Assembly: GCA_028282545.1 (NCBI GenBank)
Contig: JANQHT010000079.1
Location: 1-64,000 of the forward strand
Length of the DNA stretch: 64,000 nt
DNA from: Spirochaetales bacterium
GTDB taxonomy: Bacteria; Spirochaetota; Spirochaetia; DSM-27196; Alkalispirochaetaceae
Direction of reading: 5' to 3'
The translations under genes and the position numbers were made by a program. Positions 23,311-29,242 of the stretch are shown piece by piece. Under the pieces are notes generated by a model, which saw nothing but the letters and a program-made list of their open reading frames with translations, searched no databases and was not told the origin of the DNA. Each line of letters starts with the position of its first letter. The first letter of the stretch is position 1.

Positions 23311-23500
23311 ACAATGTTCCGCCGCTTGCATCGTAGCTGGAAGCCTGCGGTGCGGTCAAAGGGCCGTTGTCTAAGATTTCGGCGTTTTTTTCCAGTTTCC
23401 TGTTGCAGTTACCGATACCTGTCAATATAGTGGTCTTCGTCCATTTGAACGCGGTGAAACGCTACATATGGTGTTGTCCGACGAAACTGGGAGGAAACGA

Positions 23501-25555
23501 TTGTCTTCAGTGCCGCGGTATGTCGTCAAACGTGACGGCAGACTCGATTCTTACAATAAGAACAAGATCATCAACGCTATCGAGAGCGCCCTCCGGGCGG
23601 TTTATCCCGATACTGATCCAGAGCCGCTTCGAATCGAACTCCTTGCGAATCAAGTTGAAGGGAAAATAACCGCGATCATGGCGGAGCGCCACGCGAACAG
23701 CGCCCCGGCCATTGAGGAGATCCAGGACCTGGTCGAGGACGTACTCATAGAAGCGCGTGAGACGGCACTCGCCAAAGCGTACATCATCTACCGCGCGCGA
23801 CACGAAGCGATCCGTGATACGCGGAAGCTCATGCTCGACATCGATACGACGATGGACGGGTACCTGTCGATGTCGGACTGGCGGGTGAACGAAAACGCCA
23901 ATGTCAACTTCTCGCTGGGCGGCCTCATACTGCACAACTCGGGTACGGTGACGGCCAACTACTGGCTCAAGAATATCTACTCCCCGGAGATCGCCGCAGG
24001 ACACCGAAACGCCGATTTCCACATTCATGATCTGAGCATGTTCTCCGGCTACTGCGCCGGCTGGTCCTTGCGGCAACTCATCGAGGAGGGGCTCGGCGGT
24101 GTGCCGGACAAGATCACCTCTTCACCGGCGCGCCACCTCTCCACGCTGGTGCAGCAGATGGTCAACTTCCTGGGCATCATGCAGAACGAGTGGGCCGGCG
24201 CTCAGGCGTTCAGTTCCTTCGATACCTACCTGGCGCCCTTTGTCCGCGAAGACTCTCTCTCCCGTGCCGAGGTGAAACAGGCGATCCAGGCGTTTGTATT
24301 CGGCGTCAATACACCATCGCGATGGGGCAGCCAGGCACCGTTTACGAATATCACCCTCGACTGGGTGGTGCCGCCGGACCTCCGTGAAAGACCAGCCATA
24401 GTCGGCGGAGAAGAGCGACCTTACACCTACGGCGATCTGCAGGCCGAGATGGACGTGGTCAACCGGGCGCTGCTGGAGCTCATGATTCGAGGTGACGCAA
24501 ACGGACGCGGTTTCCAATACCCGATTCCGACATACAACATCACCGACAATTTCGACTGGGAGAGTCCAAACGCGGAACTGCTCTTCGAGATGACGGCAAA
24601 GTTCGGCACACCCTATTTTCAGAACTTCATCAACAGTGACCTCGACCCGGGAGATGTCCGCAGCATGTGCTGCCGCCTCCAGTTGGACAAACGGGAACTG
24701 CGCAAGCGAGGTGGCGGGCTCTTCGGATCGGACGAGTTCACCGGTAGCATCGGCGTTGTGACGATCAATCTACCGAGGATCGGGTACGTGAGCCGTACAC
24801 GACACGAGTTCTTTGCGCGGCTCGATCGGATGATGGATCTTGCGGCAGAGTCGCTCCAAACAAAACGAAAGGTGATCACGCGCCTTCTGGAAGGCGGTCT
24901 CTTCCCCTACACACGGCGGTACCTCAATCACCTCGATAACCACTTCAACACGATCGGTATTGTCGGCATGAATGAGGCGATGCGCAATTTCCAGGGGCGA
25001 GACCTGTTGCACCCGGAATCGCTCGCGTTCGCAACGGAGATCCTGGACCACATGCGCAGCCGCATGTCCGACTTCCAGGAGCGCACCGGTGAACTCTTCA
25101 ACCTGGAGGCAACGCCCGCGGAGAGCACGAGCTACCGCCTCGCAAAGCACGATCGCGAGCGCTACGCCGATATCGCAACCTCCGGCACCGACGAGCCGTA
25201 CTACACGAACAGCTCGCAACTCCCCGTTGGCTATACGGACGACATCTTTGAGGCGCTCGACCTGCAGGACCCGCTGCAAGCCAGATACACCGGCGGCACC
25301 GTTTTCCACGCGTTCCTGGGCGAAGCGGTTGACGACTGGCGGACGGTCAGATCTCTCGTCCGGACGATCGCATCCAACTACCGCCTCCCCTATTTCACCA
25401 TCAGCCCGACCTTTTCAATCTGCCCGGTACACGGGTACTTGCATGGAGAACACCCCAGGTGCCCCCGCTGCGCCGACGATGAACGCGACCGCATCACCGC
25501 GGAGATCCGCGCGCTGGAAGCAGAAAAAGCTGAACTTTTAGGAGAACCTCGATGA
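23501..25555 (+). CDS. nrdD: Class III (anaerobic) ribonucleotide reductase NrdD, lacking its glycyl-radical loop
   Basis: The protein of about 684 residues reduces ribonucleotides to deoxyribonucleotides without oxygen. An N-terminal ATP-cone (VPRYVVKRDGRLDSYNKNKI) is followed by the ten-stranded barrel. Cys185 in FSGYCAGWS and the pair Cys390/Cys391 in RSMCCRLQLD correspond in spacing to the catalytic Cys79 and thiyl Cys290 of phage T4 NrdD. A zinc site (SICPVHGYLH...PRCPRC) lies near the end. The chain stops after a helix (ITAEIRALEAEKAELLGE) with no RVxGY glycyl-radical motif; that motif is in the next gene. TTG 23501 is preferred because GGGAGG lies 6 bases before it; ATG 23468 is in frame but has a weak site. 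Confidence 0.92.
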   Translation: MSSVPRYVVKRDGRLDSYNKNKIINAIESALRAVYPDTDPEPLRIELLANQVEGKITAIMAERHANSAPAIEEIQDLVEDVLIEARETALAKAYIIYRARHEAIRDTRKLMLDIDTTMDGYLSMSDWRVNENANVNFSLGGLILHNSGTVTANYWLKNIYSPEIAAGHRNADFHIHDLSMFSGYCAGWSLRQLIEEGLGGVPDKITSSPARHLSTLVQQMVNFLGIMQNEWAGAQAFSSFDTYLAPFVREDSLSRAEVKQAIQAFVFGVNTPSRWGSQAPFTNITLDWVVPPDLRERPAIVGGEERPYTYGDLQAEMDVVNRALLELMIRGDANGRGFQYPIPTYNITDNFDWESPNAELLFEMTAKFGTPYFQNFINSDLDPGDVRSMCCRLQLDKRELRKRGGGLFGSDEFTGSIGVVTINLPRIGYVSRTRHEFFARLDRMMDLAAESLQTKRKVITRLLEGGLFPYTRRYLNHLDNHFNTIGIVGMNEAMRNFQGRDLLHPESLAFATEILDHMRSRMSDFQERTGELFNLEATPAESTSYRLAKHDRERYADIATSGTDEPYYTNSSQLPVGYTDDIFEALDLQDPLQARYTGGTVFHAFLGEAVDDWRTVRSLVRTIASNYRLPYFTISPTFSICPVHGYLHGEHPRCPRCADDERDRITAEIRALEAEKAELLGEPR

Positions 25556-26034
25556 CACACATTGCCGAACTGGATCAAAAGATCGCCGAGAAACGCGAAG
25601 AACTCGCCCGCGTCACGGGCCGCCCCACCGAAGTGTACGCCCGGATCGTGGGGTACTACCGCAGCCTGAACAACTGGAACCGCGGGAAGCGAGCGGAGTT
25701 CGAAGAGCGGGTGACGTACGACGTCTCCGCGTCGCTCGCGCAGAATGCCCCATCGACGCTCTCCGGGCGAATCCGCGCCGCCCGGAGGTACATCTTCTTC
25801 TACCGCGCCACGTGTCCGGCGTGCCCGGCGATGAAGAGCGCAATAGCCGCAACACCTATCGAAGGCACCGCGATTGACGTTGACAGCGAAGAGGGATTCG
25901 CGCGCGCCGCCGAGTATGCGATTCTCACGACGCCGCAGGTGATCTTCCTCGGTTCCGACGGGAGCGAGATCGCGCGCAGCAACGACCCGGTGGAGGTGCG
26001 CGACGCCCTGGCGGCCGAGTCGCTCGCCGGTTGA
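25552..26034 (+). CDS. Separate glycyl-radical loop of NrdD fused to a glutaredoxin-like domain
   Basis: 160 residues. After a short charged helix (IAELDQKIAEKREELARV) comes TEVYARIVGYYRSLNNWN with RGKRAEFEERVTY, which is the C-terminal glycyl-radical segment of class III ribonucleotide reductases; Gly34 in RIVGYY is the predicted radical site. From about residue 78 follows a thioredoxin/glutaredoxin fold: YIFFYRATCPACPAMKSA with CPAC at 88-91 and the cis-Pro TTPQVIF. The gene overlaps nrdD by ATGA and has its own AGGAGAA ribosome site, so it is a distinct translated gene in another frame. It would complete NrdD in trans and may deliver the reducing electrons. nrdG follows with a 4-base overlap. 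Confidence 0.85.
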   Translation: MTHIAELDQKIAEKREELARVTGRPTEVYARIVGYYRSLNNWNRGKRAEFEERVTYDVSASLAQNAPSTLSGRIRAARRYIFFYRATCPACPAMKSAIAATPIEGTAIDVDSEEGFARAAEYAILTTPQVIFLGSDGSEIARSNDPVEVRDALAAESLAG

Positions 26035-26720
26035 TCGCGTCGCTGGGCCTCCAGAAGACGACGCTGGTCGATTTCCCGGGCCGAATCGCGGCAACCATCT
26101 TCACCCACGGGTGCCCACTCCGGTGCCCCTATTGCCATAACCCGGAACTCGTTTTCGGGCCGGTTCCCGATACGTTTCTCCCGGTCGACGAGGTCTTTGC
26201 GTCTCTTCGCCGCCGGTCGAATGTGATCGAGAGTGTGGCGGTCACCGGCGGAGAGCCAACGGCGCACACAGACCTCGCGGCGATCCTGGAGCGGATTCAT
26301 GCACTCGATCTGGCGGTGAAGCTCGACACGAGCGGCGCATTCCCGGAACGCCTCCGCACGATCCTCAATGATGGTTTGGCAGACTACGTGGCGCTCGACG
26401 TCAAAACGTCGTTTGGCCGATACAACCGTGTCGGGGGCAACGGAGAGAAGGTGCGGCGAGCAATAGACGTGGTGACGGAGTCGGGCGTTGCCTGCGAGTT
26501 CCGGTGTGTCCTCGTACCCGGCCTCGTCGACGAAGCAACGCTGTATTCGATCGCTGAGGCGCTCCCCACCGGCGCAAACCTCATCCTGACGCATTTTCGC
26601 CCCGGGGGCACCCTCAATCCCGATTGGTCCACGGTGCCCCCGATTCCCCACGCTACCGCGGAGGCGTGGGCTGCCGCCCTCGATACAACGCACATCACGT
26701 GCCGCCTTCGCGGAGCGTAA
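26031..26720 (+). CDS. nrdG: Anaerobic ribonucleotide reductase activase (radical SAM)
   Basis: 229 residues. GLQKTTLVDFPGRIAATIFT then HGCPLRCPYCHNPE contains the CxxxCxxC cluster that binds the radical SAM iron-sulfur cluster; VAVTGGEPT is the SAM-binding GGE motif and LDTSGAFP another family strand. The enzyme abstracts a hydrogen from the NrdD glycine, here Gly34 of the separate loop protein. Translation probably begins at TTG 26031, whose last two bases overlap the preceding TGA. Its 3' end overlaps the convergent Crp/Fnr gene by 26 bases. The form resembles the NrdG2-like activases used with thioredoxin-dependent NrdD proteins. Confidence 0.92.
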   Translation: MIASLGLQKTTLVDFPGRIAATIFTHGCPLRCPYCHNPELVFGPVPDTFLPVDEVFASLRRRSNVIESVAVTGGEPTAHTDLAAILERIHALDLAVKLDTSGAFPERLRTILNDGLADYVALDVKTSFGRYNRVGGNGEKVRRAIDVVTESGVACEFRCVLVPGLVDEATLYSIAEALPTGANLILTHFRPGGTLNPDWSTVPPIPHATAEAWAAALDTTHITCRLRGA

Positions 26721-27309
26721 TGGTCCGGCCTTTCCACGTAAGGACCTCTTCCTCCTCCAAGGCGCGCAACGCCCGGGAGAGCGTCTCAGGGCGAACACCT
26801 ATCGCCGTGGCCGTCTCTTTTTTTGAAAGCTCACTCTGTATACGCGGACCCGGTCCGTACCGGGTCCGGACAAATCGCACCAACCGCTCGCGGACGTCCA
26901 TCGTTGTGAGAACATAGAGGCGTTCAGAGAGGAATCGCATCTTGGACACGAGATTCGACAGGAACTCGCGTCGGAACTCTTCGTTCCCAAGCAGCCTGTG
27001 CACCGCGTGGCACGGAATCGCCGACAGGACCGAGTCGTCTTCGACAACGGCGCTCACCGGATACGTGTCGCGTTCGAACAACACGATTTCGGCAAAGAGG
27101 TCTCCCGGCTCAACAAAATGGATCGTTACCTCGCGACCGTCCTCGGTGCTTCGAAAGAGCCGGACCGAACCGGATACGAGGCGATAAAAATACGTCCCCC
27201 TGTCTCCCTCCAGAAAGAGGAGCGCCCCTGCGCGATAGGTCCGGCGGATTGCGGATCGTTCGAGGAGTGCAACCGAAGACGTACTCAGTTTGTCGAAAAA
27301 ATCGGGCAA
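26695..27309 (-). CDS. Crp/Fnr-family transcriptional regulator
   Basis: 204 residues: an N-terminal cyclic-nucleotide-binding-like barrel (AGALLFLEGDRGTYFYRLVS, GSVRLFRSTEDGREVTIHFV, GDLFAEIVLF) and a C-terminal winged helix (KKETATAIGVRPETLSRALR). The recognition helix has E-T-L-S-R, the Glu-Ser-Arg pattern with which FNR reads TTGAT. There is no N-terminal Cys cluster, so it is not an FNR oxygen sensor; NO/haem-sensing relatives (DNR, NnrR, HcpR) have this build. It is divergent from the DUF1858 gene with an Fnr-type box in the 50-base gap, and a second box precedes hcp. The likely role is control of the nitrosative-stress regulon and itself. Confidence 0.88.
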   Translation of the reverse strand: MPDFFDKLSTSSVALLERSAIRRTYRAGALLFLEGDRGTYFYRLVSGSVRLFRSTEDGREVTIHFVEPGDLFAEIVLFERDTYPVSAVVEDDSVLSAIPCHAVHRLLGNEEFRREFLSNLVSKMRFLSERLYVLTTMDVRERLVRFVRTRYGPGPRIQSELSKKETATAIGVRPETLSRALRALEEEEVLTWKGRTITLREGGT

Positions 27310-27311
27310 AA

Positions 27312-27325
27312 TTGACCTCGATCAA
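27312..27325. promoter_or_regulatory. Fnr/HcpR-type box between the regulator and the DUF1858 operon
   Basis: TTGACCTCGATCAA fits TTGAC-N4-ATCAA, the FNR-like consensus with one base changed. It lies in the 50-base divergent gap, 3 bases from the regulator start codon and 35 bases before the ATG at 27360. The same TTGAC-N4-ATCAA pattern is found before hcp. It is the predicted binding site of the Crp/Fnr protein at 26695. Confidence 0.75.
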
Positions 27326-27359
27326 GGATTCACATAGTTTGTTCGTCCAAACTAACACC

Positions 27360-28535
27360 ATGACAATCGATGAGTCCACAACGTTATTCGACCTGACCGA
27401 ACACTTCCCGGAAACGATACCGCTTCTTGTCGACGCAGGATTCGCCCGCATCGACGACCCCGATGTTCGAAGGCGATTCGGGTCCACCGTCACGGTGAAA
27501 AAGGCGGCGCTCGCGCACCAACGCGATCCAGGGGAGTTCCTCTCGTACCTGCAGCGCGCGATTCGCGGACCGGAGAGAGCGCGTGCAATTCGGATCGTCG
27601 GTCTCGTACCGTGTCCGATTCGGGTGCCCATGGTGCGCGTGCTTGAACAGGCGTGCACCGAGTTCACGAACAAGACGGGAACCCCGGTCCACTACGACCT
27701 GCAGGCGGCGTATATCGGAACGGAATGGATGGAAGAGGGGCTCGCCGACTCGCCGACCGCCGACGGTCTTCCGGAAATTTTCCTATCGGCGGGGTTCCGC
27801 ATGTTCTTTACCAATGCGCGCCTCCGAAAGCTCCGTGCGGAGGGTGCGTTTATCGACCGAACCGGGTGGGAACGGCAGAACGAATTCGGAATAACCAACG
27901 ACCTTGCCGATCCGGACGGCGCGTTCTCCGTGATCGGGGTTGTCCCGGCCGTCTTTATAGTGAACCGGGAACTCCTGGGCGGTCGGGAGGTGCCGCAGAG
28001 CTGGGCCGACATCCTTCAACCTGAGTTCGAGAACTCGCTGGCGCTCCCGGTGGGCGACTTCGACCTGTTCGATGCACTCCTCCTCGGTATCCACCGTCAG
28101 TTCGGCACCGAGGGAATCGACCGGCTGGCGCGTAACCTCTTTCGTTCGATGCACCCGTCACAGATGGTTGCCGAGAAGGCCGACCAGCCGTTGATATCGG
28201 TCATGCCGTACTTCTTCACGCGCACGATCACCGAGGAGAGCCCCCATATCGCCGTTTGGCCGTCGGACGGCGCACTATCGGCGCCGATTCTGCTTGTCAC
28301 GCGTGGTGATCGCCCCGAGACGCAGCCGCTTATCGACACGATTGCCGGAGAGTCGATGAGCAAAGTGATCAGCCGCCTCGGCCTCTTCCCGAGCACACAC
28401 CCGGCGAACGACGACTTTGACGGCGAGTCGTACCCGCTCAGGTGGCCCGGATGGGACCTCCTCCTTTCCGAGGATCTCGAAAGGACGCTTACCGCCATCA
28501 CCACCCGGTTCGAATCGGTCGGGGCGTCGAGGTGA
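27360..28535 (+). CDS. DUF1858-type domain fused to a binding-protein fold, without signal peptide
   Basis: 391 residues. Residues 1-65 (ESTTLFDLTEHFPETIPLLV...) look like DUF1858/ScdA-N-type helical domains found with hybrid cluster and iron-sulfur repair proteins. From about residue 75 the chain resembles ABC ferric-type substrate-binding proteins (VRVLEQACTEFTNKTGTPV, FFTNARLRKLRAEG, VVPAVFIVNRELLGG, VPQSWADILQPEFEN). There is no signal peptide and no permease gene, so it is probably cytoplasmic. It overlaps the GTPase gene by GTGA, under the Fnr-type box at 27312. A paralogue lacking the N-terminal domain is at 42897. The ligand is unknown; a metal-cluster precursor or oxyanion is inference. 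Confidence 0.75.
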   Translation: MTIDESTTLFDLTEHFPETIPLLVDAGFARIDDPDVRRRFGSTVTVKKAALAHQRDPGEFLSYLQRAIRGPERARAIRIVGLVPCPIRVPMVRVLEQACTEFTNKTGTPVHYDLQAAYIGTEWMEEGLADSPTADGLPEIFLSAGFRMFFTNARLRKLRAEGAFIDRTGWERQNEFGITNDLADPDGAFSVIGVVPAVFIVNRELLGGREVPQSWADILQPEFENSLALPVGDFDLFDALLLGIHRQFGTEGIDRLARNLFRSMHPSQMVAEKADQPLISVMPYFFTRTITEESPHIAVWPSDGALSAPILLVTRGDRPETQPLIDTIAGESMSKVISRLGLFPSTHPANDDFDGESYPLRWPGWDLLLSEDLERTLTAITTRFESVGASR

Positions 28536-29242
28536 AACTCGTCACCGTCGCCGGCCCGCCGGCGTGCGGCAAAACGGCGGTCATCGTCAAAACGGCGCTC
28601 GCGCTCCATGAGTCGGGCGTCACGACGGGCGTGATGAAGTTCGATTGTCTTCAGACCGAGGACGACGAGCGGTACGCGCGAGCGGGCATCCCCGTTCAGA
28701 AGGGGCTCTCGGGGTCTATCTGTCCCGACCACTATTTCGCGAGCAACATCGAGGAGTCGCTCGCCTGGGGGGCGTGGAGCGGATTCGACATCCTCTTCAC
28801 AGAGTCGGCGGGGCTCTGCAACCGCTGTTCTCCGCACCTCCGCGACGTCACCGCCGTTGCGGTCATCGACGTACTGAGCGGAATCGAGGCTCCCCGTAAG
28901 GTCGGACCGATGCTGCGTACCGCCGACATCGTGGTGATCACCAAGGGTGATATCGTGAGCCAGGCGGAACGGGAAGTGTTCGGCACGCGCGTCCACCAGG
29001 CGAACCCCCGCGCACGAATCCTGCCGGTGAACGGTCTTACCGGACAGGGGGCGAGCGAGTTTGCCCGCCTCTTGCGCGACGAATCGGCGGAGACCGCGAC
29101 GGTGACCGGCTCGCGCCTTCGTTACCCGATGCCGAGCGCCGTCTGCAGCTACTGCCTGGGAGAACAGCGTATCGGGGCGAAACACCAGATCGGAAACGTG
29201 ACCTCGATTACCCTCTTTGATCGAGAGGAGGCGGATCGGTGA
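28532..29242 (+). CDS. HypB/CobW-like GTPase of the Hcp-linked cassette
   Basis: 236 residues of the SIMIBI class (HypB, UreG, CobW/COG0523). GPPACGKT (8-15) is the P-loop, FTESAGLC covers the Walker B region, and TKGD (137-140) is the guanine-specificity motif. Possible metal or cluster ligands are Cys64, Cys96, Cys99 and His102 (LCNRCSPH) and a C-terminal pair, Cys205 and Cys208 (CSYC). Relatives insert nickel, cobalt or zinc into enzymes. GTG 28532 overlaps the upstream TGA. With the ATPase and binding-fold protein beside it and hcp downstream, a role in assembling or repairing a metal cluster is likely but unproven. Confidence 0.8.
   Translation: MKLVTVAGPPACGKTAVIVKTALALHESGVTTGVMKFDCLQTEDDERYARAGIPVQKGLSGSICPDHYFASNIEESLAWGAWSGFDILFTESAGLCNRCSPHLRDVTAVAVIDVLSGIEAPRKVGPMLRTADIVVITKGDIVSQAEREVFGTRVHQANPRARILPVNGLTGQGASEFARLLRDESAETATVTGSRLRYPMPSAVCSYCLGEQRIGAKHQIGNVTSITLFDREEADR

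Follow-up and report, generated by a model that had tools for sequence, protein, structure and literature searches.

A probable two-chain anaerobic ribonucleotide reductase with a separate glycyl-radical subunit in a Spirochaetales bacterium

The window analyzed here is a stretch of 64,000 nucleotides from a Spirochaetales bacterium (assembly GCA_028282545.1, contig JANQHT010000079.1, positions 1 to 64,000). It carries the gene nrdD, a gene encoding a 160-residue protein and the activase gene nrdG, in this order, with a four-base overlap at each junction; the nrdD stop and the start of the small gene meet in ATGA. We propose that these genes very probably encode a class III (anaerobic) ribonucleotide reductase made of two chains, in which the radical subunit is a protein of its own and probably exchangeable. 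The first-pass annotation, made from the sequence of the window, had described an NrdD without its own glycyl-radical loop, a following gene with such a loop and a CPAC domain, and then nrdG. Profile matches confirmed this description.

The two chains of the window

The NrdD chain covers positions 1–531 of the 562 positions of PF13597 (Pfam search, E 1e-175) and matches NF006126 with 1064 bits, above the cut-off. Its C-terminus is composed of the zinc site and a helix, and no glycyl-radical loop follows the zinc site. Cys185, Cys390-Cys391 and the residues of the zinc site are invariant in 18 aligned NrdD sequences, 16 of them split and two single-chain. Cys641, His644, Cys654 and Cys657 are presumably the zinc ligands. 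The MCCR finger-loop motif is named in the accessible part of PMC9669993.

The small protein consists of a helix (residues 2–20), the glycyl-radical loop RIVGYYRSLNNWN, a second helix, a linker and a glutaredoxin-fold domain with the CPAC motif. Residues 25–56 correspond to positions 532–562 of PF13597 (E 8e-8, above the curated cut-off). The family is thus shared out over NrdD (1–531) and the small protein (532–562) with a single clean break, and nothing is lost. The radical glycine is Gly34, and Gly34, Cys88 and Cys91 are invariant in all 24 aligned loop proteins; this alignment does not include locus L057, whose loop protein lacks the glutaredoxin part. The glutaredoxin family PF00462 matches residues 83–132 (E 4e-5, 24.0 bits against a cut-off of 22.9). 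In an AlphaFold2 model of the small protein alone, built with 24 homologues, the predicted local distance difference test score (pLDDT) of the redox domain is mostly above 95 and the first helix is of good confidence. Foldseek with this model returned thioredoxin folds. The score of residues 24–35 is below 50, as would be expected for a loop that folds only inside the barrel.

The described class III systems of Escherichia coli, T4, T. maritima and P. copri have the same ATP-cone, barrel, finger loop, zinc site, loop motif and NrdG activase. In these four enzymes the radical domain, comprising zinc site and loop, is the C-terminus of NrdD itself (excerpted text of PMC11226230), whereas in the window the zinc site and the loop lie on two chains. 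The barrel with the finger-loop cysteines, the zinc site and an NrdG of the radical S-adenosylmethionine (SAM) type in the operon are all present, and the pair jointly holds positions 1–562 of PF13597; the loop alone is not at the C-terminus of the same chain. We would file the enzyme as a class III reductase by its predicted catalytic chain and activase, although it departs from the one-chain form.

Recurrence and reality of the split

Five split loop proteins served as queries in a scan of 84,980 species, each represented by one genome. The scan gave 29 loci, all in spirochaete-titled records. A separate loop gene is found in 24 of them (L034–L055, L057 and L059, with the nrdD side truncated or not visible in L038 and L047), and the remaining five are single-chain. 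The idea that the split is peculiar to the species of the window was dropped.

The loop gene has an independent translation start. With starts chosen by the best ribosome-site match, the start codon lies 28–37 residues ahead of the residue preceding the loop arginine in all 24 loci and in the window; it is ATG everywhere except in L053, and the ribosome-site match spans at least four bases except in L038. The gap between the nrdD stop and the loop-gene start varies from −23 to +215 nucleotides (measurable in 20 of the 24 loci, and in the window). As judged from the genes, the helix and loop part is under purifying selection, with nonsynonymous divergence (dN) of 0.04–0.14 in four close pairs against synonymous divergence (dS) of 0.36–1.8 where the latter was computable. 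The genomic comparison confirmed that the split between NrdD and the loop is real and not a sequencing error. An indel joining the frames, or a normal NrdD elsewhere in the genome, was sought and not found in the assembly, which is 86% complete and comprises 165 contigs. Besides NrdD and the small protein, no further PF13597 match was found in it, and a class I/II large subunit was looked for there and likewise not found.

Kinship-based whole-genome searches covered the Spirochaetota. PF13597 is matched in 168 of the 295 sampled genomes, and in at least 91 of these 168 the best match ends before the loop. The locus was inspected in 62 of the 91 listed genomes, 61 of which are split, while one (G063) has a single chain with a long linker. 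No match to PF02867, the class I/II large subunit, was found in 32 of the at least 91 listed genomes (locus inspected in 21), and 19 of the 32 are at least 95% complete (locus inspected in 12). In individual genomes of the 91 a lower-scoring intact NrdD is possible; in G239, for example, a glutaredoxin-type loop is present as well, at the edge of a contig. Both an intact and a shortened NrdD were recorded in at least nine other genomes. The radical part had been regarded in the first pass as a separate subunit, and this is strongly upheld by the conservation of the split, by the separate translation start of the loop gene and by purifying selection; often no reductase other than the split form was found.

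Forms of the split in Spirochaetota

Eighty further regions, mainly with shortened matches, were chosen to spread over genera, and the counts are therefore not frequencies. Separate loop genes were found in 65 of the regions, 58 of them adjoining nrdD, and 15 regions are single-chain. Of the adjoining loop genes, 33 belong to type A (helix, loop and usually glutaredoxin), 24 to type B and one to type C. Type B is a bare loop of about 45–70 residues, and its partner NrdD ends in CPYEH-like residues. Type C is represented by G239, where NrdD of another subtype is also split. A repeated sequence lies between its split parts (L151, about 2065–2424, oriented), and a match to the TD-1 RNA is present in the same region (L151, 1753–1872, minus strand). 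In L141 the glutaredoxin part is out of frame.

No loop gene was present in the stretch in seven of the 80 regions (L109 and L112 stop at contig ends), and a loop match was found elsewhere in the assembly in all seven. Seven genomes with the genus codes g18 or g19, complete or nearly so (G064, G076, G163, G201, G209, G295 and G307), have about 96 kb or more between nrdD and the loop match. This loop match adjoins an NrdG2 match in the three of them that were checked (G064, G295 and G307, below the cut-off in G307). G105 has three loop genes and one NrdD place; two loop-sized matches each occur in G068, G065, G202 and G107, and three in G219. Extra bare loops (L205 in G068:C140, L208 in G105:C48 and L210 in G065:C65) stand among phage-family genes encoding a DnaC-like loader, a single-strand binding protein, NinB, a RusA-like resolvase, anti-restriction and ParB-like proteins.

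The loop was also considered to be always paired with glutaredoxin, and this was dropped in view of L057, L214 and the bare loops. The loop genes of L057 (4501–4743), L214 and L215 encode the N-terminal helix but no glutaredoxin, and in the two from genus g18 the protein terminates in a short tail with Cys residues (CDCPP). In L202 (2014–2940, minus strand) and L204 (3227–4201, plus strand), from genomes G055 and G068, the gene for a bare loop has a radical-SAM gene as its neighbor. By the NCBIfam cut-offs these radical-SAM genes are not nrdG, and a strong NrdG2 match is present elsewhere; they could encode another activase. In G044 (L026, 1–2045) a class I/II large-subunit match and a 330-residue NrdB-like gene, recognized by eye, lie directly upstream of a fused single-chain NrdD-glutaredoxin gene.

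Plasmid-borne splits in Pseudomonadota

A tblastn search of 72,556 plasmid records with one bare loop yielded 21 records, six of which were inspected closely. Four are split, namely those of Cupriavidus necator H16 (pHG1), C. metallidurans CH34, Paracoccus ferrooxidans and Bradyrhizobium ottawaense, and two are single-chain (Geoalkalibacter subterraneus and Actinomyces oris). The split is more widespread than the first-pass annotation had considered, extending to Pseudomonadota and to virus contigs, and the view that it is peculiar to Spirochaetota was dropped after the plasmid finds. On pHG1 an NrdD of 676 residues, a bare loop of 66 residues and NrdG follow one another; Cupriavidus, Paracoccus and Bradyrhizobium all carry the bare loop between nrdD and nrdG. 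RefSeq names the small H16 protein, WP_011154154, nrdD, so the annotation pipeline recognizes the piece, and the Paracoccus loop gene is annotated as a hypothetical protein. A cobalamin riboswitch was found by an Rfam scan upstream of split nrdD in two of the four plasmid loci, those of Paracoccus and Bradyrhizobium (L353, 1777–1989, and L355, 2149–2360). According to the available text of PMC2864759, NrdDG of C. necator H16 was reported to be essential for complete denitrification. The same text gives NrdDG of CH34 as Rmet_5137 and Rmet_5139 and passes over the intervening number. From the gene order, this number probably belongs to the CH34 loop gene.

Loop genes on virus contigs

Two IMG/VR scans (80 of 236 matches kept, plus 48) and two phage records gave 130 loci, a few of which share a contig. 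The contigs are predicted viruses, and their identity rests on IMG/VR, on structural genes in sampled contigs and on the virus ANMV-1. Four contigs were sampled: L255 has portal and head-protease genes and L227 a tape-measure match, and the proteins tested from L244 and L302 were helicases and an SbcC-like protein, or gave nothing. An NrdD sequence lies within the fetched stretch in 35 of the 130 loci, and none was found in the other 95. Among these 95, the loop reading frame was caught by its motif in 81 and missed in 14. With starts chosen for their ribosome site, the frames have a median length of 56 residues (range 41–177), and 71 of the 81 have a start with a ribosome-site match of at least four bases. 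Fifty whole virus records, possibly fragments, were searched with PF13597, 49 without NrdD in the fetched stretch and L265, where NrdD was known. The 49 records gave only loop-sized matches, two of them below the curated cut-off, and no further NrdD; a radical-SAM match was not found in 38 of the 50.

The ANMV-1 gene AJP62049.1 (L351, 2677–3111; 144 residues) is annotated as an anaerobic reductase and was read by its authors as an oxygen-sensitive reductase (consulted portion of PMC4372165). It consists of a zinc-ribbon-like stretch and the glycyl-radical loop only, and no other PF13597 match was found in the ANMV-1 record. A zinc-ribbon-like stretch precedes the loop in eight virus loop genes, and some viruses may therefore supply the two halves of the radical domain together, and others the loop alone. 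Four stand-alone loops were compared with PHROG; three matched the NrdD-like phrog_487 weakly and one gave no match, and no separate family of stand-alone loops was found there.

We consider it somewhat more probable than its opposite that class III reductases have an exchangeable radical part: many anaerobes would keep a separate loop subunit, and phages and at least one archaeal virus would carry loops of about 45–150 residues, usually without nrdD or a radical-SAM gene, which would fit into the split or oxygen-cleaved NrdD of the host and receive their radical from the host NrdG. The part concerning viruses is the boldest and least tested, and it may be so that a very small virus gene keeps deoxyribonucleotide synthesis going during infection.

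Evolution and terminal helices

A quick tree was calculated from 99 NrdD cores with the C-terminus left out, after seven duplicate or partial loci had been dropped and 11 lost for want of the motif. At least seven changes between split and single-chain are needed on this tree, which has only Shimodaira–Hasegawa-like approximate likelihood ratio test (SH-aLRT) support and long-branch warnings and does not tell gain from loss. Type A, type B and the Pseudomonadota form are placed apart from one another in the tree, and each has single-chain rows in its vicinity. One old fission with re-fusions and several fissions are both compatible with this tree.

The smallest starred set holding the window comprises 14 rows: five split, six single-chain and three single-chain with glutaredoxin. 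Both terminal helices are absent from these nine single-chain relatives nearest to the window. The zinc site and the loop are separated by 5–6 residues in 16 of 18 single-chain relatives and by 14 and 43 in the other two; in 53 split pairs with a long start, a median of 26 residues follows the zinc site and a median of 28 precedes the loop. From few events, it would appear that only separated chains need the helices. The first-pass suggestion that the paired helices dock the two chains is consistent with this distribution.

Relation to known systems and proposed mechanism

No description of a separate glycyl-radical subunit of NrdD was found in open-licence full texts; Siedow 1999 may describe the H16 loop gene. 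YfiD/GrcA and T4 Y06I, the spare parts of pyruvate formate-lyase (PFL), are likewise small stand-alone glycyl-radical-loop proteins, one of them phage-encoded. Only PFL spare parts have been validated, and other glycyl-radical spare parts are considered possible (both according to the accessible sections of PMC8683613). Unlike YfiD/GrcA, the loop protein serves a reductase, its partner has no loop of its own, and it is often linked to nrdG and may carry a glutaredoxin domain. Among NCBIfam and Pfam matches at E up to 1, no PFL-type model matched the small protein, and the loop matches NrdD models only. The small protein may work like GrcA/YfiD as a stand-alone loop, but it does not belong to that family; its loop is not of the PFL type.

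A CxxC redox domain is also tied to a reductase subunit in NrdH/glutaredoxin and in the glutaredoxin-NrdB fusion of Facklamia ignava (part of PMC6187632 consulted), but the glutaredoxin of the window is fused behind a class III glycyl-radical loop and not to a class I radical subunit. Reductase genes in pieces occur in phages (nrdA of Aeh1; nrdD of Aeromonas phage phiAS4 and Lactococcus phage 949), where they are tied to homing endonucleases, introns or unexplained fragmentation (both from the available text of PMC3653736). Unlike these, the break in the window lies at the boundary of the radical domain and is conserved widely, and both genes carry ribosome sites of their own.

In the enzyme that we propose, ATP-cone, ten-stranded barrel, finger-loop cysteines and zinc site belong to NrdD, and the glycyl-radical loop of the small protein would insert into this barrel in trans. 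In type A, the two chains would be held together by pairing between the C-terminal helix of NrdD and the helix at the start of the small protein; bare forms would use other contacts. NrdG would generate the radical on Gly34, from where it would pass to a finger-loop cysteine of NrdD and on to the substrate. Where present, the fused CPAC glutaredoxin domain would re-reduce the active-site disulphide, as expected for an NrdD of the MCCR type. The first-pass proposal that the small chain brings the electron donor is plausible for such proteins; as a general rule it did not hold, since several split loops have no glutaredoxin domain. A new copy of the small chain could take the place of a loop cut by oxygen, in the way YfiD acts for PFL: the oxygen-cleavable radical would sit on a separate chain that is cheap to make, and this could allow exchange of a damaged radical part. 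That the subunit is replaceable had been a guess, and unlinked loop genes, the two or three loop genes of some genomes and virus loops without nrdD now make it plausible.

Alternative explanations

It is improbable that the free loop mainly repairs an oxygen-cut reductase, in the manner of YfiD/GrcA, and is not a normal subunit. YfiD and T4 Y06I are a precedent (PMC8683613, as far as its text was available) and virus contigs carry loops without nrdD, but NrdD has no loop of its own in the window and in other split genomes, and there the loop must therefore be a standing subunit. In viruses whose hosts have an intact NrdD, the loop may be such a spare part.

Considerably less probable is that the shortened NrdD is no longer a ribonucleotide reductase and that the pair does another radical or redox job. 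The catalytic residues are invariant, the split form is often the only reductase found, and a gene that we take to be nrdR-like lies upstream of nrdD in L023, L024 and L025. The cobalamin riboswitches of the plasmid loci fit a backup for a B12-dependent reductase. On the other side, the portions of the literature seen record no activity of the split pair.

Programmed frameshifting, stop read-through, an intron or an intein could join the frames into one chain, as the four-base overlap and the nearby frames in the window might suggest; we regard this as very unlikely. Gaps range from −23 to +222 nucleotides at a near-constant distance from start to loop, and the frame relation over 77 adjacent pairs, two of them duplicates, is 30:25:22. 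A variable gap in all three frames excludes frameshifting as a general mechanism. No intron family was found in Rfam scans of the window and 20 loci, and some loop genes are unlinked to nrdD. A sequencing or assembly error or a decaying pseudogene, with one nrdD broken by an indel, has next to no likelihood: single-chain NrdD without an insert exists in the window's own family (G001 and G002), but the same split recurs with different junctions in the 24 scan loci and across the phylum, the added helices are seen only in split forms, and dN/dS is low.

Several points weigh against the two-chain reductase that we favor. The two-chain function of the split pairs is a prediction from the genes. 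The structure model of NrdD is weak (pLDDT 63), its C-terminal helix (residues 655–680) being among the better parts. G063 demonstrates that a shortened profile match need not mean a split gene, and the locus was inspected in 62 of the 91; the counts also rest partly on related genomes, and an 86%-complete assembly could miss another reductase of the window's organism. Some split loops (L057, L214 and all bare loops) have no glutaredoxin domain, so this domain cannot be required everywhere. The H16 genetics, known only as cited in the text of PMC2864759 that was available, concern nrdDG as a whole and not the loop gene.

Features and neighboring genes of the window

The features of the locus are listed in Table 1. 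An in-frame ATG at 23468, upstream of the TTG at 23501, is a possible alternative start of nrdD. The possible regulatory site upstream of nrdD was recognized by what we take to be the NrdR-box consensus. A Crp/Fnr-type regulator gene (26695–27309, minus strand) lies tail-to-tail with nrdG and overlaps its end; its best NCBIfam matches are below the cut-offs. A HypB/UreG-like GTPase gene is located at 28442–29242 (plus strand; best match TIGR00073, below the cut-off), and the 428-residue gene beside it (27249–28535) has no NCBIfam match at E 0.001.

Table 1. Features of the split reductase locus (positions in the window)
Feature	Position	Strand	Basis or remark
Possible NrdR-box core upstream of nrdD	23423..23432	+	1 site in window vs 0.12 expected by shuffling, with a pattern drawn up only once the site had been noticed
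Ribosome-binding site of nrdD (GGAGG)	23490..23494	+	read relative to TTG 23501
nrdD: class III reductase catalytic chain without glycyl-radical loop	23501..25555	+	PF13597, NF006126
ATP-cone domain of NrdD	23519..23806	+	PF03477, E 5e-20
Finger-loop cysteines Cys390-Cys391 (MCCR motif)	24668..24673	+	invariant in 18/18 aligned
Zinc-site residues Cys641, His644, Cys654, Cys657	25421..25471	+	invariant in 18/18
Added C-terminal helix of NrdD, residues 655–680	25463..25540	+	model blocks at pLDDT 86–87; absent from single-chain relatives
Ribosome-binding site of loop gene (AGGAGAA)	25540..25546	+	
Free-standing glycyl-radical loop / glutaredoxin protein, 160 residues	25552..26034	+	ATG start
N-terminal helix of loop protein, residues 2–20	25555..25611	+	model
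Glycyl-radical loop (PF13597 532–562)	25624..25719	+	radical glycine codon 25651–25653
Glutaredoxin/thioredoxin-fold domain	25786..26028	+	Pfam match, model, fold search; CPAC at 25813–25824
nrdG2: radical-SAM activase	26031..26720	+	TIGR02495, 162 bits, cut-off 131

Implications

The loop genes are easily missed in annotation, as in CH34 and Paracoccus. The existence of spare parts beyond PFL is raised as an open question in the accessible text of PMC8683613, and concrete genes, including that of C. necator H16, are now at hand. With the split pairs, nature provides loop, barrel and activase as pieces that can be combined in different ways and measured one by one. Ribonucleotide reductase is an essential enzyme, and its class III form has been described as one chain and an activase; a widespread form with a separate radical subunit would change this picture.

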